In this document: positions 9,318 to 23,200 of the stretch, piece by piece | Layout: the number at the start of each line of letters is the position of its first letter | Numbering within the stretch: the first letter of the stretch is position 1 | Assembly: GCF_004114955.1 (NCBI RefSeq) | Contig: NZ_CP030053.1 | Location: forward strand, 5,084,001-5,148,000 | Direction of reading: 5' to 3' | Source of the DNA: Bradyrhizobium guangzhouense | GTDB taxonomy: Bacteria > Pseudomonadota > Alphaproteobacteria > Rhizobiales > Xanthobacteraceae | Length of the DNA: 64,000 nucleotides | Notes under the pieces: model-generated | What the model was told of the DNA's origin: nothing | The model's input: only the letters and a program-made list of their open reading frames with translations | Database searches by the model: none | Program-made: the position numbers and the translations under genes

Positions 9318-10592
9318 TCAGTGCTTCCCCGGCCCCATATACCCGAACAGGAACCCCGCCACTTTCCGCATCTGGATCTCCTCGCTCCCCTCAGTGATGC
9401 GGTAGCGCCGGTGGTGGCGGTAGATATGCTCGAACGGCTTGTGGCGCGAATAGCCCATGCCGCCATGGACCTGCATGGCGCGGTCGGCCGCCTCACAACA
9501 GAGGCGGTTTGCCCAATAGTTGCACATCGAGACGCGGTCGGAGAGCGTGCGCTCGATCTGCTCCTCGGTGAGCTGGTCCATCTCCCAGGCGGTCTTGCGG
9601 ATCAACAGACGCAGCATCTCGGCCTGCGTCGCGAGCTCGACCAGCGGGAACTGGATCGCCTGGTTCTCGGCAAGCGCCTTGCCGAACGGTTTTCGCTCGC
9701 GCGCGTATTTGACGCTCTCGTTGATGCAGTAGACCGCAGCTCCCAGCGAACTCGCCGCCTGACGGATGCGGTTCTGATGCACGAAGCATTGCGCCAGCGA
9801 CAGCCCGCGGCCGACTTCGCCGAACTGCGCGTCCTCAGGCACGAACACATCGGTAAAGCTGACGCGCGGGTGGTCGGTCGGCATGTTGAAGGTCCACATA
9901 TATTCCTCGACCTTCACGCCGTGGCTCTTGGCCGGCACCAGGAAGCAGGTGATGCCGCGGGCATCGCCGTCATTGCCCGACGTGCGCGCGAACAGCGCGC
10001 AATGGGTGGCGACGTGCATGCCTGTCGTCCACATCTTCTCGCCGTTGATGATCCAGCCCTTGACGTTGTCCCTGACAGCAGGCACCGCGCGCGTCTCCAT
10101 GTGGGTCGCGTCGGAGCCGTGATGCGGCTCGGTGAGGCCAAAGGTGATGCGGTACTTGCCCTTGATCGAGCCGTCGATCATCGCCTTCTGGTCGTCGCGG
10201 CCGTAGCGGTCGAGCATGGTGACGACGGGGAAATTGCCGACGATCGAGTGCTCGTTCTGGAGGTCGTTGTGCAGGCCGAGGCCCTTGGCGGCGAAATGCT
10301 CGCGGATCACGGCCATCCAGAGATTGGATCCGTCCTTGCCGCCATATTGCTTCGGCACCGGAAAGCGGAGGTGACCGGCGGCATCCGCAAGGTCTTTCGC
10401 CTTGCGCAGCAGCGCTTCCCACTCATGCCGCGGCAGGCCGCCGTTCTCGAAATCGGTGCGCGCCCATTCGCGGCGATGATCGAAGAAGCGGATGTTGTCA
10501 TCGGCCTGTTCCAGCGGCTTGATCTCGCGCGCGATGAAACGGTCGAGTTCTCCGAGATAGGCGACGAGATCGGCAGGCAATGAGAAATCCAC
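9318..10592 (-). CDS. Acyl-CoA dehydrogenase
   Basis: FAD-dependent alpha,beta-dehydrogenation of an acyl-CoA, feeding electrons to ETF. The 424-residue protein has the normal three-part acyl-CoA dehydrogenase layout: an N-terminal helical domain, a middle beta domain with FGLTEPHHGSDAT (FAD/substrate contact), and a C-terminal helical domain with ARERKPFGK and YRITEGSEEIQ, the region where the catalytic glutamate usually lies. The start is a GTG at 10592-10590 preceded by GGGAGAG on the coding strand. The divergent CaiD-like crotonase begins 213 bases away. The sequence does not show chain-length specificity. Confidence 0.9.
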   Translation of the reverse strand: MDFSLPADLVAYLGELDRFIAREIKPLEQADDNIRFFDHRREWARTDFENGGLPRHEWEALLRKAKDLADAAGHLRFPVPKQYGGKDGSNLWMAVIREHFAAKGLGLHNDLQNEHSIVGNFPVVTMLDRYGRDDQKAMIDGSIKGKYRITFGLTEPHHGSDATHMETRAVPAVRDNVKGWIINGEKMWTTGMHVATHCALFARTSGNDGDARGITCFLVPAKSHGVKVEEYMWTFNMPTDHPRVSFTDVFVPEDAQFGEVGRGLSLAQCFVHQNRIRQAASSLGAAVYCINESVKYARERKPFGKALAENQAIQFPLVELATQAEMLRLLIRKTAWEMDQLTEEQIERTLSDRVSMCNYWANRLCCEAADRAMQVHGGMGYSRHKPFEHIYRHHRRYRITEGSEEIQMRKVAGFLFGYMGPGKH

Positions 10593-10805
10593 AGGTTCTC
10601 TCCCGGATTGATTTTGTCGTTTTGTGTTAAGGCGCTAGGCGCATTCGTGCTTCGCTCGATTAAGGTGAGAAGAGCGCGTGCAAGTCAAGCAAGCCGACGC
10701 GTGTGAGGCGCGCAAGGCGCACCCGCGCAATTCGATGGTGCTCTTGCGTTGACGCGCAGTAGTATGACGTCAACATTCCCTTACGAAAAACTGCGGGAGC
10801 GCGCG

Positions 10806-11585
10806 ATGGAGCTGAAATTCTCAAAGGTGGAACGCAAGGGGCCGATCACGATCATCACGCTGTCGCGGCCCGAGGTCTACAACGCGCTGCACATCGATGC
10901 GCATTTCGAGCTCAACAAGGTGTTTGACGATTTCGCCGCGGACCCCGAGCAATGGGTCGCGGTCGTCACGGGTGCCGGCGACAAGGCGTTCTGTGCCGGC
11001 AACGATCTGAAGTGGCAGGCGGCGGGGGGAAAACGCGGCTGGGACAAGGGCGGCTTTGCCGGCCTCACCTCGCGCTTCGACTGCGACAAGCCGATCATCG
11101 CCGCGGTCAACGGCGTCGCCATGGGCGGCGGCTTTGAAATCGCGCTGGCCTGCGATCTCATCATTGCCTCGGAGAACGCGACCTTCGCCCTGCCCGAGCC
11201 ACGCGTCGGCCTTGCCGCGCTCGCCGGCGGCCTGCACCGGCTGCCGCGCCAGATCGGGCTGAAGCGCGCCATGGGCATGATCCTCACCGCGCGCCATGTC
11301 AGCGCCAAGGAGGGACATGAGCTCGGCTTCGTCAACGAAGTGGTTCCGCAAGGCGAGGCGCTCGCGGGCGCGCTGCGCTGGGCCGAGACGATCACCAAGA
11401 ACTCGCCGATGTCGATCCGCGCCTCCAAGCAGACCATCCGCAGGGGCCTCGCCGTGTCACTCGAGCAGGCGATCGAGGAGCAGCGCGAATATCCCGCGGT
11501 GAAGGCGATGGTGGCCTCGCAGGATTACATCGAGGGGCCAAAGGCGTTCTCGGAGAAGCGGCCGCCGAAATGGCAAGGGAAATAG
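10806..11585 (+). CDS. Enoyl-CoA hydratase, CaiD-like crotonase
   Basis: A 259-residue crotonase that most resembles carnitinyl-CoA dehydratase and related hydratases. It has FCAGNDLKWQ for the first oxyanion loop, GGFAGLTSRF, and NGVAMGGGFEIALACDL for the second. Active-site acids lie in the ALPEPRVGL region. The start MELKFSKVER at 10806 follows GGGAG by about six bases. An in-frame ATG at 10749 has no such site. The next upstream gene is a divergent acyl-CoA dehydrogenase, so the two may form a small regulon for one acyl chain. It is followed by the ISAs1 element 64 bases downstream, which does not interrupt it. Confidence 0.88.
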   Translation: MELKFSKVERKGPITIITLSRPEVYNALHIDAHFELNKVFDDFAADPEQWVAVVTGAGDKAFCAGNDLKWQAAGGKRGWDKGGFAGLTSRFDCDKPIIAAVNGVAMGGGFEIALACDLIIASENATFALPEPRVGLAALAGGLHRLPRQIGLKRAMGMILTARHVSAKEGHELGFVNEVVPQGEALAGALRWAETITKNSPMSIRASKQTIRRGLAVSLEQAIEEQREYPAVKAMVASQDYIEGPKAFSEKRPPKWQGK

Positions 11586-11649
11586 TGCGATCGCATCGCC
11601 GTAAGTCTGAGTGCGCCCAACATCATCAGTTTCATGCCCCGGCTTGACC

Positions 11650-12848
11650 CAGGGCTATCGCATGTGACCGATAAGGCTGAGAAGGAATTCGTCTTCCCAG
11701 CCTGCTCGTTTGACCTTCTGTCGCATGGAGATGCGGGCGGGGTGGGCTCGAATGAGATTGATTGCAGCTCGCCGCAAGATCGCGAAGTTCTCGGGGCCGT
11801 TGTTTTTTCTGGTTCGGCAAGCGTCTTCGCCAAAGACGACATCGAGCACCCAGTGCAACTGATTCTCGATGCTCCAATGGCCTCGGACGACCTGCAACAA
11901 TCGTCTTGCGGGCAGGTATTTGGACAACAAGTAATATCGCACGGACGGCTTGCCGGCGGGTTTGCCATGCAGTCGGCGGCGCGAAGTGATGCGAGCCACG
12001 GCCGCCACTCCGGGAAAGCGGTTTGTCGTACCCAGACTGATGTTGCGCATGACGGTGGCGCGCCGGGATTCGCATCGATCGTGCGTGCTCGGCTCGCGTC
12101 GTTGAGCCACGCTGCGCTTGCCCGAGCGGGCAAAGCAGCGCTCGACCTCCGCGAACAGTTTGCTTTGATTTTCCTTGAGAGCCAGCACGTAGTGGGCGCC
12201 ACGCTCGAGCACCTTCTTGGCGAAGGGACGATTGCAATGCAGGGCGTCGGCAGTGACGATGCAGCCTTCGAGCGAAAGCATTTGCAGCACATCCAGGGCA
12301 CCTTGGGCCTCGTTGCGGCCTGGCGCCTTGCATGCAGCCAGGGCCATGCGGGCTTCGGTTGCAAAGACATTGACCATGTGCAGTGGCGTGGCGCTGCGAC
12401 CGCGTTCGTAAGCTCCTCGAACAGCTTTGCCATCGACTGCCACCACGCCGGTGAGCTTGATCCCGTTGGCCTCTGCGAATGCTGCCATAAAGCTTCGGAA
12501 GGCCTGTTCGAAAGCCCCCGGATCGAGCGCGTTGAAGACCCGGCTGAACGTATCGTGACTGGGGATTCCGTGCTCCAACCGAAGGAATTGCCGCAACAGC
12601 TTTTCCTTGGACGACGCGAAAACCTCCATATCCGTCGCGCCCTGTCCTCCGCACAACACCGTTGCCAGCGCGATGACGATGAGGTCCAGCAGGTCGTGCA
12701 GTGCGTTGGGTGCACGCGGATCTGGCAACGTACTGAAGATACTGCGAATCTTGCGCATAGGACCCCCACGCCGAATCGGGAGTCCTCTTCAGAATCCATA
12801 TCGCTGGCCCGCGCAATACCACCCTCAAACCCACATGCGATTCCCCTG
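11650..12848 (-). mobile_element. Complete ISAs1-family insertion sequence
   Basis: A 1199-base element with imperfect 17-bp terminal inverted repeats at 11650-11666 and 12832-12848. Read inward they are CAGGGCTATCGCATGTG and CAGGGGAATCGCATGTG, identical at 15 of 17 positions. CAGGG ends are typical of ISAs1. It is flanked by a perfect 10-bp target duplication, CGGCTTGACC, at 11640-11649 and 12849-12858. With one duplication copy removed, the target rejoins into a palindromic repeat with stem ATGCCCCGG / CCGGGGCAT and loop CTTGA, so insertion occurred at the hairpin tip. Intact ends, an intact transposase and a perfect duplication indicate a recent insertion. Confidence 0.93.
11655..12758 (-). 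CDS. ISAs1-family transposase (H-repeat-associated type)
   Basis: A 367-residue DDE transposase, full length for the family. It starts MRKIRSIFSTLPDPR, the typical N-terminal region of H-repeat-associated proteins. Candidate catalytic residues are Asp109 (VAVDGKAVRGA), Asp171 (VTADALHCNR) and Glu298 (HWSIENQLHWVLD). The last fits the conserved W-x2-E-N-x-LHW-x-LDV motif. The frame is uninterrupted and ends four bases inside the left terminus of the element. Long open frames also exist in the other five readings, as expected for GC-rich DNA, and are not genes. Confidence 0.95.
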   Translation of the reverse strand: MRKIRSIFSTLPDPRAPNALHDLLDLIVIALATVLCGGQGATDMEVFASSKEKLLRQFLRLEHGIPSHDTFSRVFNALDPGAFEQAFRSFMAAFAEANGIKLTGVVAVDGKAVRGAYERGRSATPLHMVNVFATEARMALAACKAPGRNEAQGALDVLQMLSLEGCIVTADALHCNRPFAKKVLERGAHYVLALKENQSKLFAEVERCFARSGKRSVAQRREPSTHDRCESRRATVMRNISLGTTNRFPGVAAVARITSRRRLHGKPAGKPSVRYYLLSKYLPARRLLQVVRGHWSIENQLHWVLDVVFGEDACRTRKNNGPENFAILRRAAINLIRAHPARISMRQKVKRAGWEDEFLLSLIGHMR

Positions 12849-12948
12849 CGGCTTGACCGGGGCATCCAGTACGCCGCGGCTTTTCCGTAGCTCACGGCCC
12901 TCTCTGGAATACTGGATCGCTCGATCAAGTCGGGCGATGACAGCGGAG
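12849..12948. repeat. Right part of a palindromic repeat split by the ISAs1 element
   Basis: Together with 11631-11649 on the other side of the IS, this reconstitutes a member of the family also present at 16570-16680 and 35478-35576. Shared blocks are ATCCAGTACGCCGCGG and ACTGGATCGC, with an end of CGGGCGATGACAGCGG. The right-hand hairpin (GATCGCTCGATCAAGTCGGGCGATG region) is intact. The left-hand hairpin is the one cut by the IS. Confidence 0.85.
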
Positions 12949-12961
12949 AATTTGGCGCGGC

Positions 12962-13339
12962 CTAGCCGCCTCGCTCCAGCTCTCGCTTGTAGGACGCGTA
13001 GTTCGGCTGATCGACGGCGAGCTTGTCCATCGTGGTCGCCCACAGATGCTCGGCGAGCCCCGGCGTTGCGAGATCAACCTCGCCTTTCGCGATGCGCTCA
13101 GCGAGCGCGCGGTTCAGCTCCGTGACCGAGCCGTTGACACCGAGCAGCCCGCGCAGCCGCTCCACTTCCCTCGCATCGCTCCCCTCCTCCTGCGTCAACT
13201 GTCGCGTCACGAGGTCGAGGATGTTGACCGCGACGCGCAGCTTGAACGCCTGATGGCCGGATATCAGCGGCGTGATGTCGTTGCGGAGGAAATCGGCGAC
13301 CGCCTTGGTCAGCTCGATCGGGGTCGGTTCGTCCTGCAT
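12962..13339 (-). CDS. DUF6285 protein, probable partner of the adjacent APH-fold kinase
   Basis: A 125-residue soluble, mostly helical protein of the DUF6285 type. No catalytic motif is visible. The start MQDEPTPIEL at 13339 lies two bases after the kinase stop codon, so the two are translationally linked. A longer frame to 13480 only overlaps the kinase. In the levulinate pathway of Pseudomonas putida a small protein of this size, LvaB, is needed with the kinase LvaA. Gene order and size suggest an equivalent role here. That equivalence is inferred and was not checked by alignment. It is the last gene of the leftward unit, and the IS lies just downstream. Confidence 0.75.
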   Translation of the reverse strand: MQDEPTPIELTKAVADFLRNDITPLISGHQAFKLRVAVNILDLVTRQLTQEEGSDAREVERLRGLLGVNGSVTELNRALAERIAKGEVDLATPGLAEHLWATTMDKLAVDQPNYASYKRELERGG

Positions 13340-13341
13340 GC

Positions 13342-14328
13342 CTATCCTCCCCGCGGCGCCAGCAGCCGTAACAGATCGATCTCGGTCTCCGACGCGCGGC
13401 GGCCGATCATGGCGCGCTCCATCGAATGATCCGGTCCCTCGCGGAACCGCTGCATCATGCCACCGCACATGATGCCCCAACGCAGCGTCCCCATCACTTC
13501 CCAGAACTTGACGCGCGCTGCATCGACCCTGCGGCCGGCAGCCTCGTAGCCCGCGAACAGCTCCTCGCGCGAGCCGAAGCCACCGACAGGCTTATCGATC
13601 TCGCCAAAGCGCCAGGAGTTGACGCAGATCCAGCCGAGGTCCTCCATGGGATCGCCGAGATGAGCGAGCTCCCAGTCGAGCACCGCGCGAACGCCGTCGG
13701 CGCCGATGATGAGATTGCCGTTGCGGAAATCGCCGTGCACCAGTGTCGTCTCGGCCGACGGGCCGGGATCATGATCGCGCAGCCAGCGCAGCGCCAGCTC
13801 GAACACGGGCTTTGGCCAATTCAGGCTGCGATAGTCACGGTCGAACTCGGCAATCTCCTGCGTGGCCGACCTGCTGCGCAGTTTCGGCAATTTGTCCTGC
13901 GGCAGCCGATGCAAACCAGCAAGCACGCCGCCGACCTGCCGCGCCAGGATGGGACGTACGGCAGCGAATTCATCATCACGAAGAATCTTGCGGGCGATGG
14001 TCTCCCCCTCGACCCGCTGCATGATGAAGCCGGTGCCGAGCTCTTCATCCGGCGTCAGCACGTGCATCACCCGCGGCGACGGCACGCCCGCCTCGTAAGC
14101 GAGCTGCATCAGCTGCGCTTCGGCGGCAAGCCCTGCAGCCCGCGTCGGCGCTGCGCCGTACCCCTTCGGCGAGCGGCGCAGGATTGCGCCGATCGGCCCG
14201 TCGGGATGGGTGATATCGAAGCGCCAGGTCTCCTGACTGGCGCCGCCCGACAGCTTTGCCGCGCTGGTGACGCCGGTCGCGCCTGGACACCAGCGCTGAA
14301 CGCTGCAGGATAGCTCCGCCTCGATCAT
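13342..14328 (-). CDS. APH-fold phosphotransferase (ACAD10/11- or LvaA-like kinase)
   Basis: A 328-residue member of the aminoglycoside-phosphotransferase fold that is a metabolic kinase by context rather than a resistance gene. It shows the catalytic loop LVHGDFRNGN (Asp200, Asn205) and the metal-binding DWELAHLGDP (Asp218), plus an N-terminal nucleotide lobe starting at LSGGASQETWRF. The chosen start MIEAELS at 14328 overlaps the upstream crotonase stop as ATGA. The frame to 14415 is only overlap. Kinases of this group phosphorylate the hydroxyl of 4-hydroxyacyl-CoA in levulinate catabolism. The neighbouring DUF6285 protein and the ACAD11-like dehydrogenase at 16854 support such a job. Confidence 0.85.
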   Translation of the reverse strand: MIEAELSCSVQRWCPGATGVTSAAKLSGGASQETWRFDITHPDGPIGAILRRSPKGYGAAPTRAAGLAAEAQLMQLAYEAGVPSPRVMHVLTPDEELGTGFIMQRVEGETIARKILRDDEFAAVRPILARQVGGVLAGLHRLPQDKLPKLRSRSATQEIAEFDRDYRSLNWPKPVFELALRWLRDHDPGPSAETTLVHGDFRNGNLIIGADGVRAVLDWELAHLGDPMEDLGWICVNSWRFGEIDKPVGGFGSREELFAGYEAAGRRVDAARVKFWEVMGTLRWGIMCGGMMQRFREGPDHSMERAMIGRRASETEIDLLRLLAPRGG

Positions 14329-15113
14329 TTGCCTTTGAACTGCGCGGGCCGCTTCTCCAGGAATGCGCCGACGCCCTCGCGAAAATCCTGCGTATCGCCG
14401 GCGCGGAGCTGGCACTGGAACTCGAGATTGAGCTGATCCTCGAAGGAATTTTCCGGGCTATCCCAATAGAGCTTGCGGATCAGCGCCAGCGCCACCGTCG
14501 GGCCGCTGGCGAGATCGCGCGCAAGCTTCATCGCTTCTTCCATCAGCACGCCGTCATCATAGACGCGGTTGACGAGGCCCCATTCCAACGCCTTCTCGGC
14601 CGGGAGACGCTCGCCCATCAGCGACAGTTCGACCGAACGCGCCTTGCCGATCAGGCGCGGCAAGAGCCAGGTCGAGCCGCAATCCGGCACGAGACCGATG
14701 CGGCGGAAGGCTTGCAGGAAGTAGGAGGAACGTGCGCACAAGATCATATCGCCGAGCAGCGCGAAGCTCATGCCGGCACCGGCGGCCGGACCGTTGACCG
14801 CGGTCACGATCGGACAGTGCAGATTGCGGATGCGGCGCAGGAACGGATGAAAGCCGGTCTCCAGTGTCAGGCCGGCCTTGGTCTTCTTCGACTGGTTGTT
14901 GCGGCCTTGCAGATTGGCACCGGTGCAGAACGCACGGCCCGCGCCGGTCAGCACCACGCAGCGCACCTCGTCCTTCTTCTCCTCGATCGCGTCGAGCGCA
15001 TCGGAGAGACCGCCCAGCATGTCAACGGAGACCGCGTTCATCACCTCCTGATGGTCGAGCTTGAGGATCGCGACCGAACCATCGAATTCGAGCGTGACGT
15101 GTTTGAACTGCAT
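14325..15113 (-). CDS. Crotonase, PaaG-like enoyl-CoA hydratase/isomerase
   Basis: A 262-residue crotonase whose C-terminal half follows PaaG closely: RRIGLVPDCGSTWLLPRL with the catalytic-type aspartate, then EWGLVNRVYDD and FREGVGAFLEKRPAQFKGK. The first oxyanion motif is FCTGANLQG and the second is NGPAAGAGMSFALLGD. It probably hydrates or isomerises the double bond of an unsaturated acyl-CoA. MQFKHVTLEF at 15113 is the start; the 39-residue upstream frame is leader. It is the first gene of the leftward operon, coupled by a 4-base overlap to the kinase, and diverges from the SDR at 15281. Confidence 0.88.
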   Translation of the reverse strand: MQFKHVTLEFDGSVAILKLDHQEVMNAVSVDMLGGLSDALDAIEEKKDEVRCVVLTGAGRAFCTGANLQGRNNQSKKTKAGLTLETGFHPFLRRIRNLHCPIVTAVNGPAAGAGMSFALLGDMILCARSSYFLQAFRRIGLVPDCGSTWLLPRLIGKARSVELSLMGERLPAEKALEWGLVNRVYDDGVLMEEAMKLARDLASGPTVALALIRKLYWDSPENSFEDQLNLEFQCQLRAGDTQDFREGVGAFLEKRPAQFKGK

Positions 15114-15280
15114 CGTTTCCTCGTCAGTTGCAGCCCGCGCCAGTTTCGCAGACCGGAATTTGGTTTTGCCGGGGCGCATATTTGATTTTTGGCGCGGTCT
15201 TGTCCATGGTGATTGCAGCATAGCAAGCAATCTTGCGCGCAGCGGCTGATGCGCCGCATACTAAAAACAGGAAACGCGCC

Positions 15281-16060
15281 ATGAACCTTTTCGACCTCAC
15301 CGGCCGTGTCGCCGTGATCACCGGCGGCAATGGCGGCATCGGGCTTGGCATCGCGCAGGCGCTCGCCGGCCAGGGTTGCAACATCTCGATCTGGGGCCGC
15401 AACGCCGACAAGAACAAGGCCGCTGCCGCGAGCATGACCGGCCTTTCAGGCAAGGTCGATACCCGAATCTGCGACGTCACCGATCCCGCGTCGGTCAATG
15501 CCGCGATGAAGGCGACGCTCGACACCTTCGGACGGGTCGATGGCTGTTTCGCCAATGCCGGCATCGGCGGCGGCGGACGGCGCTCCTTCATCGAGCGAAC
15601 CGAAGATGAATGGCGCACGATGTTCGCGACCAATCTCGACGGCGTGTTCCACGCGTTCCAGGCTGCGGCAAAACACATGACCGACCGCGCCAATGCCGGC
15701 GACCCCTTTGGCCGGCTGGTCGCGACCTCGAGCCTCGCCTCGATCTTCGGCACCGCGCGCAACGAACATTATGCCGCGACGAAAGCTGCCATCAACGCGC
15801 TGGTGCGCGCGCTCGGCGTCGAGCTCGCCCGCCACGGCGTCACCGCGAACGCGATCCTGCCCGGCTGGATCAAGAGCGACATGACCGCGGGCATCATGGC
15901 CAACGAAAAATTCGTGGCCAATGTGATGCCGCGCATCCCGATGCGGCGCTTCGGCGAGGCCAGCGATTTCGGCGGCATCGCGGTGTATCTGATGAGCAAG
16001 GCGTCGTCGTATCACACCGCCGACACGTTCGTGATCGACGGCGGCTATACGGCGTTTTGA
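15281..16060 (+). CDS. Short-chain dehydrogenase/reductase
   Basis: A 259-residue classical SDR with TGGNGGIGLG (nucleotide binding), NAGIGGGG, catalytic serine in TSSLAS, and tyrosine/lysine in HYAATKAAINAL, followed by PGWIKSDMT. All catalytic residues are present. It probably oxidises a hydroxyacyl-CoA or reduces a keto group. The start MNLFDLTGRV follows GGAAACGCGCC at 15281. It diverges from the crotonase-kinase-DUF6285 unit across 167 bases and precedes the VOC protein and ACAD11-like dehydrogenase. In the levulinate-type pathway an SDR performs the final hydroxyacyl oxidation, which would fit. Confidence 0.88.
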   Translation: MNLFDLTGRVAVITGGNGGIGLGIAQALAGQGCNISIWGRNADKNKAAAASMTGLSGKVDTRICDVTDPASVNAAMKATLDTFGRVDGCFANAGIGGGGRRSFIERTEDEWRTMFATNLDGVFHAFQAAAKHMTDRANAGDPFGRLVATSSLASIFGTARNEHYAATKAAINALVRALGVELARHGVTANAILPGWIKSDMTAGIMANEKFVANVMPRIPMRRFGEASDFGGIAVYLMSKASSYHTADTFVIDGGYTAF

Positions 16061-16066
16061 TTCTTC

Positions 16067-16149
16067 GTAGCCCGGATGGGAGCGTAGCGTAATCCGGGAC
16101 TTTCAAAAGCAAGTAAGACCCGGATTTCGCTACGCTCCATCCGGGCTAC
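16067..16149. repeat. Imperfect inverted repeat (GTAGCCCGGAT family)
   Basis: GTAGCCCGGATGGGAGCG (from 16067) faces CGCTCCATCCGGGCTAC (ending 16149), with inner GTAGCGTAATCCGGG and CCCGGATTTCGCTAC. The whole 83 bases fold into one long imperfect hairpin with the loop near 16102-16115. It sits between the SDR and the VOC gene. Confidence 0.8.
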
Positions 16150-16169
16150 AACTCTGAGGGGGAAGGCAA

Positions 16170-16550
16170 ATGTTTTCACATATCATGATCGGCACCAACG
16201 ACCTCGACAGGGCCAAGACGTTCTACGACAGCCTGCTGAGCACGCTCGAGGTGCGGCCGGCCAAGGTCGACGGCCATCGCATCTTCTACTTCACCAAGAC
16301 CGGCGTGTTCTCGGTGACCAAGCCGATCAACGGCGAGCCGGCGACCTGCGCCAACGGCGGCACCATCGGCTTTGCCGCCAACTCGCCCGAGCAGGTCGAC
16401 AAGTGGCATGCCGCCGGTGTCGCCGCCGGCGGAACGCCGATCGAGAATCCGCCCGGCGTCCGCGAGGGCGCGGGAAACAAGCTCTATCTCGCCTATTTGC
16501 GCGATCTCGACGGCAACAAGATCTGCGCGATGCATCGGATGCCGAGCTGA
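16170..16550 (+). CDS. VOC-superfamily (glyoxalase/dioxygenase fold) protein
   Basis: A 126-residue single-module VOC protein. It begins MFSHIMIGTNDLDRAKTFYD, the usual first beta-alpha-beta unit, and ends with YLRDLDGNKICAMHRM, the usual second unit with a DxxGN turn. His4 and other candidate metal ligands are visible, but a full metal triad cannot be assigned. The start is preceded by GAGGGGGAAGG. Members include lactoylglutathione-lyase-like enzymes and bleomycin-resistance folds, so the activity is open. It is co-directional with the SDR and the acyl-CoA dehydrogenase, but palindromic repeats separate it from both. Confidence 0.82.
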   Translation: MFSHIMIGTNDLDRAKTFYDSLLSTLEVRPAKVDGHRIFYFTKTGVFSVTKPINGEPATCANGGTIGFAANSPEQVDKWHAAGVAAGGTPIENPPGVREGAGNKLYLAYLRDLDGNKICAMHRMPS

Positions 16551-16569
16551 TTGAGCGACAACCACTCCT

Positions 16570-16680
16570 GTCATGCCCCGCGAAGGCGGGGCATCCAGTA
16601 CGCCGCGGCTTCTCGATTTCTATCGCTGCGGCCTCTGGAATTCTGGATCGCCCGGTCTTCGCCGGGCGATGACAGCGGAG
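16570..16680. repeat. Palindromic repeat, GTCATGCCCC / GGGCGATGAC family
   Basis: The element starts GTCATGCCCCGCGAAGGCGG and ends CGGGCGATGACAGCGG. It contains two hairpins with tips GCGAAGGC and GTCTTCGCC, joined by ATCCAGTACGCCGCGG and TTCTGGATCGC. It is the intact relative of the element interrupted by the ISAs1 insertion. It occupies the first part of the 303-base gap before the acyl-CoA dehydrogenase; I see only leader sequence in the rest. Confidence 0.85.
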
Positions 16681-16853
16681 CGTGTGGCGCACGCAACAGC
16701 GGCCTCCTCACCCCCATTCAAACAACATTTCAAACGCGCTCGCGAAAATTCCATCGCGTGGCATGGCGCGCGTGAGAAATACACGCTCGCACTTTCGCGG
16801 CGCTGCGACTATTCTCCCGGCCAACACGATCTCAGCGTCCCCCGGGAGGAACA

Positions 16854-18131
16854 ATGACAAAGCACAGCTATATTCCCCGTACGACCAACTACACGCTCAA
16901 TCCGGGCGATGAGCTCAATGACCTCAGGATGTCGGACCAGGTCCGGCCGCTCTACGATCACGTCAAGAAGTTCATCCGCGAGACGGTCGAGCCGATGTCA
17001 ATCGAATTCGCCAAGGCGGGCGAAGGCAAGGAAGATCGCTGGAGCTTCACGCCGAAGCAGCTCGAGGTGCTCGAGGTCGCCAAGAACAAGGCCAAGAAGG
17101 AAGGTCTGTGGAATTTCTTCCTGCCCGATGACGAGACCGGCCAGGGCCTGAAGAACCTCGATTACGCCTATATCGCCGCCGAGCTCGGCAAGAGCCCGCT
17201 GGCGTCGGAGACCATGAACTGCTCGGCGCCCGACACCGGCAACATGGAGGTGCTGGAGCGTGTCGGCACCAAGGAGCAGAAGGAAAAGTGGCTGAAGCCG
17301 CTGATGAACGGCGAGATCCGCTCGGCCTATGTCATGACCGAGCCGAACGTCGCCTCCTCCGACGCCAAGAACATCTCAACGACCGCAAAGCTCGTCGGCG
17401 ACGAATGGGTCATCAACGGCGAGAAGTATTACATCTCCGGCGTCGGCGATCCGCGCTGCAAGATCCTCATCGTGATGGTGAAGACCAATCCGGATGCGGC
17501 GCCGAGCAAGCAGCAGTCGCAGATCCTGGTGCCGCGCGACACCCCCGGCGTCGAGGTGCTCGGCCCCATGTACGTGTTCGGTCAGGACCACGCGCCGCGC
17601 GGCCACATGCACATGCGCTTCAACAATGTGCGCGTGCCCAAGGAGAACATGCTGCTCGGCGAAGGCCGCGGCTTCGAGATCTCGCAACTCCGCCTCGGGC
17701 CCGGCCGCATCCATCATTGCATGCGCACCATCGGCAAGGCCGAGAAGGCGCTCGATTTGATGGTGCAGCGTGGCCTCACCCGCGAAGCTTTCGGCAAGAA
17801 GATCGCCTATCTCGGCGGCAACATGCAGATCATCGCGCAGGCCCGCTGCGAGATCGAGGCGATGCGGCTGATGGTGCTGAAGGCGGCCAAGGCGATGGAC
17901 GTGCTCGGCAACAAGGAGGCCCGCGTCTGGGTCTCCATGGTCAAGGCCATGGTGCCCGAGCGCGCCTGCAAGATCATCGACCAGGCGATCCAGATGCACG
18001 GCGCCACCGGCATCTCGCACTGGACCCCGCTCGCCGAGATGTACCAGGACGTCCGTCACCTCCGCTTTGCGGACGGCCCGGACGAGGTGCACTGGATGGT
18101 GGTGGGCCGCCACGAGCTGAGCATGGCGTAA
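16854..18131 (+). CDS. Acyl-CoA dehydrogenase of the ACAD10/ACAD11 type
   Basis: A 425-residue flavoprotein whose sequence follows the dehydrogenase domain of ACAD10/ACAD11: NCSAPDTGNMEVLERVG, MTEPNVASSDAKNI, LGPGRIHHCMRTIGKAEKAL, GATGIS and LRFADGPDEVHW are all recognisable. These enzymes act together with an APH-fold kinase, which is fused in the vertebrate proteins and separate at 13342-14328 here. In levulinate catabolism the homologue removes phosphate from a 4-phosphoacyl-CoA. The start follows CCCGGGAGGAAC, a strong ribosome-binding site. The link to the kinase is inferred from family and proximity. Confidence 0.9.
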   Translation: MTKHSYIPRTTNYTLNPGDELNDLRMSDQVRPLYDHVKKFIRETVEPMSIEFAKAGEGKEDRWSFTPKQLEVLEVAKNKAKKEGLWNFFLPDDETGQGLKNLDYAYIAAELGKSPLASETMNCSAPDTGNMEVLERVGTKEQKEKWLKPLMNGEIRSAYVMTEPNVASSDAKNISTTAKLVGDEWVINGEKYYISGVGDPRCKILIVMVKTNPDAAPSKQQSQILVPRDTPGVEVLGPMYVFGQDHAPRGHMHMRFNNVRVPKENMLLGEGRGFEISQLRLGPGRIHHCMRTIGKAEKALDLMVQRGLTREAFGKKIAYLGGNMQIIAQARCEIEAMRLMVLKAAKAMDVLGNKEARVWVSMVKAMVPERACKIIDQAIQMHGATGISHWTPLAEMYQDVRHLRFADGPDEVHWMVVGRHELSMA

Positions 18132-20188: not shown

Positions 20189-20504
20189 GCGGGAGCTCCG
20201 GCGAAAGATGCGCCTGCATTAATTAGCCCGCGGATGGCCGATGGCAAGCCCCGCCGGCTCTGCGTCCGGCGCGGGCCTCAGGCCGGCGCCATGCAGACTG
20301 GCCTGTCGCCCGCCGGCGCCGCCGATGATCTGGATCGTTCGTTGACATCTGTTGACGCTCGCGCTTCGCCCACGACGCAACGCCTGCGCGCAAGATGCTC
20401 GCCCAAATCCGGCGTGGCATCATCGGCAACGAAGGGCTGGCGTCGAACGGCCCCTGCAAGGCAAAACAACAAAACAAGAAGAGCAAGGCCGCCGGGAGAG
20501 GACC
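20189..20504. other. 316-base divergent intergenic region
   Basis: Holds the leaders of yghU (leftward) and the nitronate monooxygenase (rightward). I find no convincing gene, repeat or RNA here. TTGACA occurs at 20342-20347 and TTGACG nearby at 20352, but neither has a good -10 at the right distance. The last 45 bases are A/G-rich and carry the GGGAGAGG ribosome-binding site used by the next gene. Confidence 0.5.
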
Positions 20505-21653
20505 ATGAAATCGCCGATCTGCGACATGCTGGGGATCGAGTTCCCGCTGCTCGCTTTCAGCCATTGCCGCGACGTCGTCGCCGCTGTCAGCCGCGCCGGC
20601 GGCTTTGGCGTGCTCGGCGCCACCGTGCACACGCCCGATACGCTCGAGCGCGAGCTCAAATGGATCGACGATCACGTCGATGGCAAGCCTTACGGCATCG
20701 ACGTGCTGATCCCGGAGAACATCTCCACATCGGGCGAGAAGGACGTCACCTGGAAGAGCCTGGAAGCGCGCGTGCCGCTGGAGCATCGCGCCTACACGCG
20801 CGACCTCCTGAAGAAGTACGACATCGAGCTGACGACGACGGAGGTGGACGACAACCAGCCGCAACCGTTCGACGCCGGGACCGCGCTGGAGCTGCTCAAA
20901 GTCTCGTTCAATCATCCGATCCGCCTGATCGCGAATGCGCTCGGCGTGCCGCCGAAGGCGATGATCGAGATGGGCAGAAAGCACAACGTGCCGGTTGCAG
21001 CCCTCGTCGGCGCCAAGGAGCACGCGTTGCGCCAGGTCGCGGCTGGCGTTGATATCCTCGTCGTGCAAGGCACCGAGGCCGGCGGCCATTGCGGCGAGGT
21101 TTCGACCATGGTGCTGGTGCCCGAGGTGATCAAGGCCATCAAGCCGATCCGCGACGTGCCGGTGCTTGCGGCCGGCGGCATCATGACCGGCCGGCAGATG
21201 GCGGCCTGCATGGCGATGGGTGCGGCCGGCGCCTGGACCGGTTCGGTGTGGCTGGCGACCGTCGAATCCGAGACCAGCGAGATCTTTCGCGAGAAGATGA
21301 TCGCGGCCTCGTCGCGCGATGCGATCCGCTCGAAAGGCCGCACCGGCAAGCCGGCGCGGCAGCTCCGCTCGGTCTGGACCGACGCTTGGGACCGCGCGCC
21401 GGAAAGTCCGGGCGCCCTGCCGATGCCGCTTCAAAGCATCATCAGCCGCGACGCCTTCAATTCGATCGACCGGGCGGCGGCCGCCGGCAACGCCAAGGCG
21501 CGAGATCTCGTCAGTTATTTCGTCGGCCAGGGTGTCGGCCTGATCGACAGCGTGAAATCCGCGGGCGCCCTGGTGCAGGAGTTCAAGGAAGAGTTTGCCG
21601 AAGCCGTCGAGCACATCAATGCGCTTGTGGCGGAGAGCGGAGCGAAGCAATGA
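20505..21653 (+). CDS. Nitronate monooxygenase (2-nitropropane dioxygenase family)
   Basis: A 382-residue FMN-dependent TIM-barrel enzyme that oxidises alkyl nitronates or nitroalkanes, or acts as a related flavin oxidoreductase. Visible are the N-terminal ICDMLGIEFPLL, GTEAGGHCGEVSTM (phosphate/FMN loop with the usual catalytic histidine region) and AGGIMTGRQMAACMAMGAAGAWTGS. MKSPICDM at 20505 follows GGGAGAGG. Longer upstream frames are not supported. It is followed 29 bases later by a thiolase-like gene, suggesting one operon. Bradyrhizobium often places such genes among acyl-CoA catabolism genes, so the physiological substrate may not be a nitroalkane. Confidence 0.88.
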   Translation: MKSPICDMLGIEFPLLAFSHCRDVVAAVSRAGGFGVLGATVHTPDTLERELKWIDDHVDGKPYGIDVLIPENISTSGEKDVTWKSLEARVPLEHRAYTRDLLKKYDIELTTTEVDDNQPQPFDAGTALELLKVSFNHPIRLIANALGVPPKAMIEMGRKHNVPVAALVGAKEHALRQVAAGVDILVVQGTEAGGHCGEVSTMVLVPEVIKAIKPIRDVPVLAAGGIMTGRQMAACMAMGAAGAWTGSVWLATVESETSEIFREKMIAASSRDAIRSKGRTGKPARQLRSVWTDAWDRAPESPGALPMPLQSIISRDAFNSIDRAAAAGNAKARDLVSYFVGQGVGLIDSVKSAGALVQEFKEEFAEAVEHINALVAESGAKQ

Positions 21654-21682
21654 CGAAACAACAGAAATCGTGAATCTGGATT

Positions 21683-23200
21683 ATGACTGACAAGAGCCCT
21701 ATCCCCGAAGACCGCATTCCCGTCATCGTCGGCATCGGCGAGATCGTCGACCGCCCCCAGGAGATCACCGAAGGCCTCGAACCGCTCGACCTGCTCGAAC
21801 AGGCGCTCCGACGCGCAGAAGCTGACGCCGGCGCAAAGCTGCTTGGCGAAGTGCAGTCGCTCGACGTCGTCAACTTCCTGAGCTGGCGCTATCGCGATCC
21901 CGAGAAGCTGCTGGCGCAGCGCCTCGGCATCTTACCCGCACATTGCTATTACGGCCCGGTCGGCGGCGAGACCCCGATCCGCTACATCCACGAGGCGGCA
22001 AAGCGCATCGCGCGCGGTGAATGCAACGTGGCTGCGGTCTGCGGCGCCGAGGCGCAATCGACCGTGACGAAAGCCGATCGCGCCGGCGTCAAGCTGCCAT
22101 GGACGCCGTTCGCCCATGATGTCGCGGAGCCCAAGCGCGGCGCGGCATTCCAGAAGCCGCTCGCCATCAAGCTCGGCGTGTTTCGGCCCGTCACGGTCTA
22201 TCCCTTCTATGAGGCCGCCTCCTCCGCGCATTGGGGCCAGACGCCGCACGAGGCGATGGCGGAATCGGGCACGCTGTGGTCGCGCTATTCGGACGCCGCT
22301 GCGCAAAATCCAAATGCCTGGCTGAAAAGGCGCTATGCGGCCGAGGAGATCACGACACCGACAGCGGACAACCGGCTGATCGCCTGGCCCTACAACAAGC
22401 TGATGGTGGCAAACCCCAGCGTCAACATGGGCGGCGCGCTGCTGCTCACCAGCCTTGCCAGGGCACGCGCGCTCGGCATTGCGGAGCAGAAGCTGGTCTA
22501 TCCGCTCGGTGGCGCGTCAGCCGAAGACCCGCCCGACTATCTCGTGCGCGACCAGTTCTTCGAGAGCCATCCGCAGAACGCCGTGCTGAAGGCCGTGATG
22601 GATCTTGCGGGCGGCGACGGCAAGAAGTTCGACGCGATTGAGCTCTATAGCTGCTTTCCCTGCGTTCCGAAGATGGCGCGGCGGACGCTCGGCCTTTCCG
22701 CCGACGTGCAGCCCACCGTGAACGGCGGTCTCACCTTCTTCGGCGCACCGCTCAACACCTACATGACGCATGCAGCTTGCGCGATGGTGCGCCGGATCCG
22801 CGGCGGCGACAAGCTCGGCCTGCTCTACGGCCAGGGCGGTTTTGTTACCAAACATCACGGGCTGGTCGTGGCGAAGGCGCCGCCGCGCGATGCACTCGCG
22901 CAGGAGACGAGCGTGCAAGCGGAAGCCGACCGCAACAAGCGTGCGGTGCCGGAGTTCGTTAACGAGGCCTCAGGCAAGAGCAAGGTCGAGAGCTTTACGG
23001 TGCTCTATGGCCGCGGCGGAGATGTCGAGCACGGCGTGGTGATGCTGCGGACGGAGGATGCCAAGCGTACCCTGGCGCGGATTCCGGCGGGCGACAGTAC
23101 GACGCTGGTACATCTTCTGAACATGGACCGCACGCCGGTCGGCTCACTGGGCGAGATCACCATGGCCGCGGATGGCGTGCCGGAGTGGCGCGTGGCGTGA
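21683..23200 (+). CDS. Thiolase-like protein, type 1 (TLP1-like), probably not a classical thiolase
   Basis: A 505-residue thiolase-fold protein with an extra C-terminal segment (about residues 420-505, starting near KVESFTVLYGRGG) of the kind described for thiolase-like protein type 1. The N-terminal thiolase half ends with VAAVCGAEAQS, where classical enzymes have xLAxGxE. Counting back from that Glu to the usual nucleophile position gives Gly (about residue 95, GPVGGETP) instead of cysteine; Cys88 is seven residues away. The second-half motif GGLTFFGAPLNTYMTHA is present. It is probably co-transcribed with the nitronate monooxygenase. Thiolase activity should not be assumed. Confidence 0.8.
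   Translation: MTDKSPIPEDRIPVIVGIGEIVDRPQEITEGLEPLDLLEQALRRAEADAGAKLLGEVQSLDVVNFLSWRYRDPEKLLAQRLGILPAHCYYGPVGGETPIRYIHEAAKRIARGECNVAAVCGAEAQSTVTKADRAGVKLPWTPFAHDVAEPKRGAAFQKPLAIKLGVFRPVTVYPFYEAASSAHWGQTPHEAMAESGTLWSRYSDAAAQNPNAWLKRRYAAEEITTPTADNRLIAWPYNKLMVANPSVNMGGALLLTSLARARALGIAEQKLVYPLGGASAEDPPDYLVRDQFFESHPQNAVLKAVMDLAGGDGKKFDAIELYSCFPCVPKMARRTLGLSADVQPTVNGGLTFFGAPLNTYMTHAACAMVRRIRGGDKLGLLYGQGGFVTKHHGLVVAKAPPRDALAQETSVQAEADRNKRAVPEFVNEASGKSKVESFTVLYGRGGDVEHGVVMLRTEDAKRTLARIPAGDSTTLVHLLNMDRTPVGSLGEITMAADGVPEWRVA

Follow-up and report, generated by a model that had tools for sequence, protein, structure and literature searches.

A locus of Bradyrhizobium guangzhouense, carried on a 64,000-nucleotide stretch of its chromosome (NZ_CP030053.1, positions 5,084,001 to 5,148,000; hereafter the window), probably encodes a CoA-linked module for hydroxy-acid catabolism, in which a kinase of the LvaAB type is combined with phosphate elimination by an ACAD10/11-type acyl-CoA dehydrogenase and with a further acyl-CoA dehydrogenase as a regular third part. 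We name these components KIN1 (the kinase, 13342–14328), ACAD1 (the ACAD10/11-type dehydrogenase, 16854–18131) and ACADn (the third part, 9318–10592); a second kinase–dehydrogenase pair of the same chromosome, at about 2.966 Mb, is named KIN2/ACAD2. This reading draws on protein families, conservation, co-occurrence and active-site residues as observed in the window and in two genome samples, one of 299 Pseudomonadota and one of 212 Alphaproteobacteria (four of the 30 ACADn-bearing genomes in the second are shared with the first). In the 299-genome searches, the candidates scored per genome numbered at most five for ACADn and ACAD1, seven for KIN1, eight for the crotonase and 16 for DUF6285; absences in this sample accordingly refer to strong matches only. 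Genomes of the KIN1 branch, which are non-lva and DUF6285-linked, are called window-type.

The gene directly behind KIN1 encodes a DUF6285 protein of 125 aa (12962–13339, minus strand; PF19802, E = 3e-32), which, judged by its sequence, is a member of the LvaB family and homologous to LvaB. According to the available text of PMC6692424, LvaB binds LvaA, and both together yield 4-phosphovaleryl-CoA. A genome scan for LvaA-type kinases, restricted to the best 80 of at least 571 relatives, gave 80 lva-type loci, and a same-strand DUF6285 open reading frame adjoins the kinase in all 80. An S. stutzeri plasmid carries a complete lva-like operon (regulator annotated as PrpR, kinase, DUF6285, histidine phosphatase, dehydrogenase, short-chain dehydrogenase/reductase (SDR), ligase, DUF485 and symporter); in phosphatase-free loci of P. 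putida and relatives, DUF6285 sits between kinase and dehydrogenase, which is the place of LvaB. A profile built from these 80 LvaB proteins, recognised by where they sit in the operons of P. putida and relatives (near relatives of KT2440 rather than KT2440 itself), matched the window protein at 54.7 bits, against 9.5 bits for the best of 2000 shuffled sequences. The homology to LvaB that the first-pass annotation had presumed is thereby borne out.

Across the 299 genomes, DUF6285 was found in 26, with a kinase adjacent or fused to it in 26/26, and a KIN1 query at E ≤ 1e-35 returned exactly the same 26. The two proteins are fused in four genomes belonging to two branches: three window-type ones (G087, G214 and G250) and the lva-type G046. 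Of 8000 candidates scored in a search for relatives of fusion length, 441 matched; among the matches listed, 120/120 contained both Pfam domains, and the named ones were Sphingopyxis. The AlphaFold2 model of one fusion (pLDDT 91.6, pTM 0.90) is consistent with a fixed kinase–DUF6285 arrangement, and the region that finds structural matches is chiefly its kinase part, residues 1–321. When a model of DUF6285 by itself (pLDDT 85.2, pTM 0.55) was compared with PDB folds, nothing matched at E ≤ 0.001, the best E value being 1.9, and a PDB sequence search returned nothing below E = 0.5. We found 7789 relatives of the protein, and the name DUF6285 did not occur in the literature searched. The family would thus acquire a function class, that of LvaB partner of hydroxyacyl-CoA kinases, at times fused to the kinase.

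KIN1 (minus strand; PF01636, E = 1e-37) is an APH-fold kinase whose catalytic motifs HGDFRNGN and DWELAHLGDP are intact. By sequence comparison it is nearest to the LvaA type, as the first-pass annotation had proposed, and stands in a branch separate from the lva kinases: KIN1 shares 34% identity with S. stutzeri LvaA and 24% with the KIN2 of its own genome, and BLASTP scores are 158 bits to LvaA and 61 to KIN2. Against the kinase domain of ACAD11, KIN1 scores 42 bits and KIN2 260 bits. We built a quick tree from 57 of 121 kinases, with lva-type kinases thinned and long branches flagged. The four ACAD11-type (KIN2-type) kinases split from the other 53 with support 100; the lva-type rows formed one group with support 83, with KIN1 outside it; and most window-type kinases grouped with those of Variovorax, Cupriavidus and Nonomuraea with support 92. 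One kinase, from G139 (L047), fell outside both the lva and the window-type groups. The seven DUF6285 genomes without ACADn (L048–L054) all belong to the lva group, and the remaining 19 do not.

ACAD1 (plus strand) matches mouse ACAD11 (8v3u) at 390 bits, with the next family at 139, in agreement with the ACAD10/11 assignment made at first pass. Its residues R280, H288, R291 and D407 correspond to R626, H634, R637 and D753 of ACAD11, a set we abbreviate R-H-R-D, and the proline motif NCSAPDTGN is present. Changes at R626, H634 or R637 of ACAD11 abolish the dehydrogenase step, and D753 is the catalytic base (PMC12440821, in the part available). Counted as alignment rows, which include 12 query proteins and therefore count some proteins twice, the complete set occurs in 12/12 ACAD10/11-type rows, in 93/95 LvaC-type rows (two Variovorax misfits) and in 0/16 ACADn rows. 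A further acyl-CoA dehydrogenase group (L218–L225, eight loci in seven genomes) has R-H-H-D, is nearest to a Thermus LvaC-type protein and has no labelled kinase nearby.

Genes of the ACAD1 subfamily (>650 bits) occur in 13/19 window-type genomes, as against 1/280 others, and an ACAD10/11-type dehydrogenase at E ≤ 1e-100 occurs in 19/19 as against 66/280. ACAD1 is neither paired nor fused with an ACAD11-type kinase, the nearby kinase being LvaA-type; no ACAD11-type kinase adjoins the nine non-Bradyrhizobium copies of ACAD1 in window-type genomes, nor the copy in G193. Among the ACAD2-type loci examined, an ACAD11-type kinase lies alongside in 4/9. Six window-type genomes are without ACAD1, and five of these hold another R-H-R-D dehydrogenase with no KIN2 alongside: ACAD2-type in G139, G250 and G285, a weaker one in G214 and an LvaC-type one in G289, the weaker dehydrogenases of the last two helping the reading given here. 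A phosphate-type dehydrogenase free of KIN2 is therefore present in 18/19 window-type genomes, as would be expected if KIN1 serves that dehydrogenase. In Sulfitobacter, kinase, DUF6285, ACADn and an R-H-R-D dehydrogenase lie within one 18-kb stretch; in Nonomuraea, an R-H-R-D dehydrogenase directly precedes a KIN1-like kinase, with DUF6285 on the opposite strand at a distance of about 5.6 kb.

The steadiest companion of the KIN1 branch is ACADn (minus strand), an ordinary FAD-containing acyl-CoA dehydrogenase of the Glu type in which every phosphate-binding residue is missing (F-Q-S-E in 16/16 rows, query rows included). It was found in 19 of the 299 genomes, exactly the 19 window-type ones, spanning 12 genera with one copy per genome, and in 0/7 lva-type genomes and 0/273 genomes without DUF6285. 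In 13/19 it lies inside the same 18-kb locus, also directly beside kinase–DUF6285 fusions. ACADn thus belongs to the locus unit by conservation, and the interval 12962–18131 given by the first-pass annotation omits it, although no other dehydrogenase tracks the kinase as well. In the second sample, 29/30 ACADn genomes have a KIN1-like kinase, and 28/29 genomes with a kinase of at least 220 bits have ACADn, a line set after the scores were known. At E ≤ 1e-35, 48/212 genomes have a KIN1-like kinase and 19 of these 48 are without ACADn, which speaks against perfect co-occurrence; most of these ACADn-less kinases, which fall outside the coverage of the tree, score below 220 bits and may be lva-type. 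Two genomes are exceptions, G335 (a 239-bit kinase without ACADn) and G410 (ACADn without such a kinase), and G302 holds two ACADn copies. Because ACADn is found elsewhere almost only with a KIN1-type kinase, a new branch of known hydroxy-fatty-acid degradation probably starts from this locus, with ACADn as a candidate for a missing part of one route.

The same chromosome holds a second pair, also overlooked at first pass: KIN2 and ACAD2 lie side by side at about 2.966–2.968 Mb (L032:8736–11155), without DUF6285. They match ACAD11 at 260 and 450 bits, respectively, and ACAD2 is 56% identical to ACAD1. The presence of an ACAD10/11 route apart from the locus suggests that the window module may have another substrate or regulation, and one bacterial genome can hold two separate families of kinases of the hydroxyacyl-CoA kinase kind. 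A separate observation concerns G147 (L043), in which the kinase–DUF6285 pair has an ACAD11-type kinase (KIN2, 504 bits) some 2 kb away, and no labelled dehydrogenase adjoins the latter.

Plant matter, lactones and oxidised lipids are sources of hydroxy acids of the kind considered here. From the evidence above we infer the reaction order, the substrate and the roles of ACADn, the SDR, the VOC (vicinal oxygen chelate) protein and the crotonases. The hydroxy acid would be activated with CoA elsewhere. KIN1 and DUF6285, by analogy with LvaA and LvaB, would form a two-subunit kinase that transfers phosphate from ATP to the hydroxyl group of the hydroxyacyl-CoA, most likely at C4. By analogy with ACAD10/11 biochemistry, ACAD1 would then strip the phosphate via FAD, with no net oxidation, to leave a 2-enoyl-CoA; phosphate removal through FAD without net oxidation has been proposed for ACAD10 (PMC11342911, available part). 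The crotonases and beta-oxidation would complete the 2-enoyl-CoA by hydration and then thiolysis, ACADn probably carries out an ordinary alpha,beta-oxidation on the same carbon chain, either ahead of the phosphate steps or following them, and the SDR may form the hydroxyl or oxidise it, in the manner of LvaD. The core idea of the first-pass annotation, a 4-hydroxyacyl-CoA kinase followed by phosphate elimination, is probably right in kind.

Several observations weigh against this scheme. The more constant partner is ACADn (19/19), a protein without the phosphate-binding residues, and not ACAD1 (13/19); the seven Bradyrhizobium genomes (7/19) are the only ones with ACAD1 inside the 18-kb locus, and 6/19 lack it altogether; at E ≤ 1e-40, G087 has only a KIN2-paired ACAD10/11-type gene; and KIN1, at 42 bits, is far from the ACAD11 kinase domain. 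In two Variovorax loci and one Cupriavidus locus, several dehydrogenases lie by the kinase–DUF6285 pair and none of those labelled has R-H-R-D, so that kinases of this sort may need no phosphate-type dehydrogenase close by. In a rival arrangement, KIN1/DUF6285 and ACADn are the true pair and ACAD1 is a neighbour in Bradyrhizobium only; the phosphorylated hydroxyl would then have a different position or belong to a different acyl chain, and ACADn would oxidise or eliminate with its Glu base. The restriction of ACADn to window-type genomes (0/280 others), its recurrence in the second sample and its place beside the fusions all fit such a pairing, as do the Variovorax and Cupriavidus loci. We nevertheless regard it as unlikely: ACADn has none of the residues that bind phosphate, all 19 of its genomes also carry an ACAD10/11-type dehydrogenase and 18 a KIN2-free R-H-R-D one, and conservation indicates a shared pathway without proving that ACADn takes the phosphorylated compound. 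A related proposal, which we put forward tentatively, is that KIN1, DUF6285 and ACADn constitute an undescribed alphaproteobacterial catabolic unit, with a Glu-base dehydrogenase instead of or besides the phosphate-binding one, that opens a hydroxylated acyl chain outside the lva and ACAD10/11 routes. Literature searches, at the level of their listings, brought up nothing on the module, either for Bradyrhizobium or in connection with fitness data.

A levulinate (lva) pathway proper, with the SDR as LvaD, KIN1/DUF6285 as LvaAB and ACAD1 as LvaC, would account for the presence of all three activities by family and for the homology of KIN1 and DUF6285 to LvaA and LvaB. It is improbable, since KIN1 lies outside the lva-type kinase group and ACAD1 is only 31% identical to LvaC. 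The SDR is 32% identical to LvaD, an ordinary level among SDRs, and we discarded this likeness as evidence. The first-pass view of the locus as an lva-like module consequently stands for the homologous kinase and partner and for the R-H-R-D set, shared with both ACAD10/11 and LvaC, and falls for the dehydrogenase: because this is ACAD10/11-type and not LvaC-type, the locus cannot count as an lva operon, an identification also rejected on the kinase branch and on the opposite strand of ACAD1. Very improbable, in our estimate, is a kinase whose substrate is an isoprenoid or steroid alcohol rather than a 4-hydroxyacyl-CoA, the phosphate ester then giving an alkene. Its model is the 25-hydroxy steroid kinase of Sterolibacterium, which shares the APH fold and phosphorylates an alcohol en route to an alkene (PMC8449060, available part). 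That enzyme differs in using a steroid alcohol without CoA and in its weak sequence similarity to KIN1, which is not closer to it (25.7 bits, phmmer) than to LvaA (158 bits, BLASTP), the programs differing between these scores.

All six open reading frames of the first-pass annotation lie at the positions and on the strands it gave, their Pfam families agree, and its quoted motifs are all found in the translations. The kinase operon begins with a PRK05981-type crotonase, an enoyl-CoA hydratase/isomerase (14325–15113, minus strand; ECH_1, 1e-55; NF004635, 486 bits with a cut-off of 351). Its stop and the kinase start share a 4-base ATGA overlap, and the kinase TAG is followed by two bases and then the DUF6285 ATG, so both tight junctions noted at first pass are real. 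The SDR (15281–16060, plus strand; adh_short_C2, PF13561) is divergent from the operon, the two having a common upstream region of about 170 bases. The ECH–kinase–DUF6285 order with the head-to-head SDR recurs in seven relatives, six of the same genus and one from another genus of the family, and is therefore not a chance arrangement. The operon crotonase is present in 14/19 window-type genomes and 5/280 others (E ≤ 1e-70), with copies at least 67% identical in 9/299; we rejected it as a constant part of the unit, it is associated nonetheless, and its count favours the preferred reading in part. The putative VOC/glyoxalase-fold protein (16170–16550, plus strand; PF00903, E = 1.9e-7) was labelled in the scanned loci only in Bradyrhizobium, in six other loci of the genus. 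Of the two additions to an lva-like pathway named at first pass, the crotonase thus holds as an associated gene, and the VOC protein is confined to the genus among the labelled loci.

A second crotonase (10749–11585, plus strand; PF00378, E = 1e-62; start codon uncertain, run from 10791) lies between ACADn and the kinase operon and occupies an equal position in the seven relatives. Between it and DUF6285, an ISAs1-family insertion (11650–12848, minus strand; transposase 11655–12758; NF033564, 332 bits with a cut-off of 70) cuts ACADn off from the kinase operon. It is flanked by exact 10-base direct repeats, CGGCTTGACC, at 11640–11649 and 12849–12858, which represent the target duplication; the target is an intergenic repeat, and related repeat text occurs again at about 16590–16675. 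No such element was labelled at the locus in the seven relatives, and because it is inserted between convergent genes it probably disrupts nothing. Further downstream, at 20352–23200, the window carries an NMO-type flavoenzyme and a thiolase-like protein (TLP1 C-terminal domain); a nitronate monooxygenase gene and thiolases likewise occur in a Sulfitobacter cluster whose kinase is of the window type.

The survey of lva-type loci also bears on P. citronellolis. Between the cluster of P. putida KH-21-134 (L128) and those of P. taiwanensis (L150) and Pseudomonas sp. BN411 (L152), identities are 57% for LvaA, 79% for LvaC and 67–68% for LvaD; the published values for KT2440 and P. citronellolis are 59, 78 and 67, the last for LvaD (PMC6692424, available text). 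This match identifies L150 and L152 as P. citronellolis-type clusters. No LvaB was found in the P. citronellolis cluster according to the same text, and in both L150 and L152 a divergent LvaB/DUF6285 adjoins a histidine phosphatase. As judged from these matching clusters rather than from the P. citronellolis sequence, LvaB was therefore probably overlooked there. A histidine phosphatase gene also follows kinase–DUF6285 in Azoarcus, Azospirillum and Thermus plasmids (L029, L031, L065, L066) and in a number of Pseudomonas loci. An operon-defined LvaC (L058:9044–10216) is 31% identical to ACAD10/11-type proteins and scores 188–196 bits against ACAD11 chains. P. putida LvaC is reported as 56–62% identical to the ACAD10/11 domains (PMC11342911, available part), which is hard to reconcile with the 31% seen here, in a comparison of near relatives rather than of KT2440 LvaC.

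Set beside the lva operon of Pseudomonas, the window locus is alike in its LvaA-type kinase followed at once by LvaB/DUF6285 and in the R-H-R-D dehydrogenase nearby. It differs in the separate branch of its kinase, in a dehydrogenase that is ACAD10/11-type rather than LvaC-type and lies on the opposite strand, in the additional ACADn, crotonases and VOC protein, and in a kinase operon without a ligase gene. The mammalian ACAD10/ACAD11 version was reportedly published only in 2024–2025. With it, and with the bacterial KIN2/ACAD2 pair, the locus shares the dehydrogenase: ACAD1 is 56% identical to ACAD2, matches ACAD11 at 390 bits and has all four residues. The kinase sets it apart, being neither of the ACAD11 type (KIN2 is) nor fused or directly adjacent to the dehydrogenase, and having an LvaB-like partner. 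The Sphingopyxis-type loci, in which a fused kinase–DUF6285 stands beside ACADn, have the same kinase branch and the same ACADn (74–77% identical); there, unlike in the window, kinase and DUF6285 form one protein, and an ACAD1-subfamily gene was not found in the three genomes.

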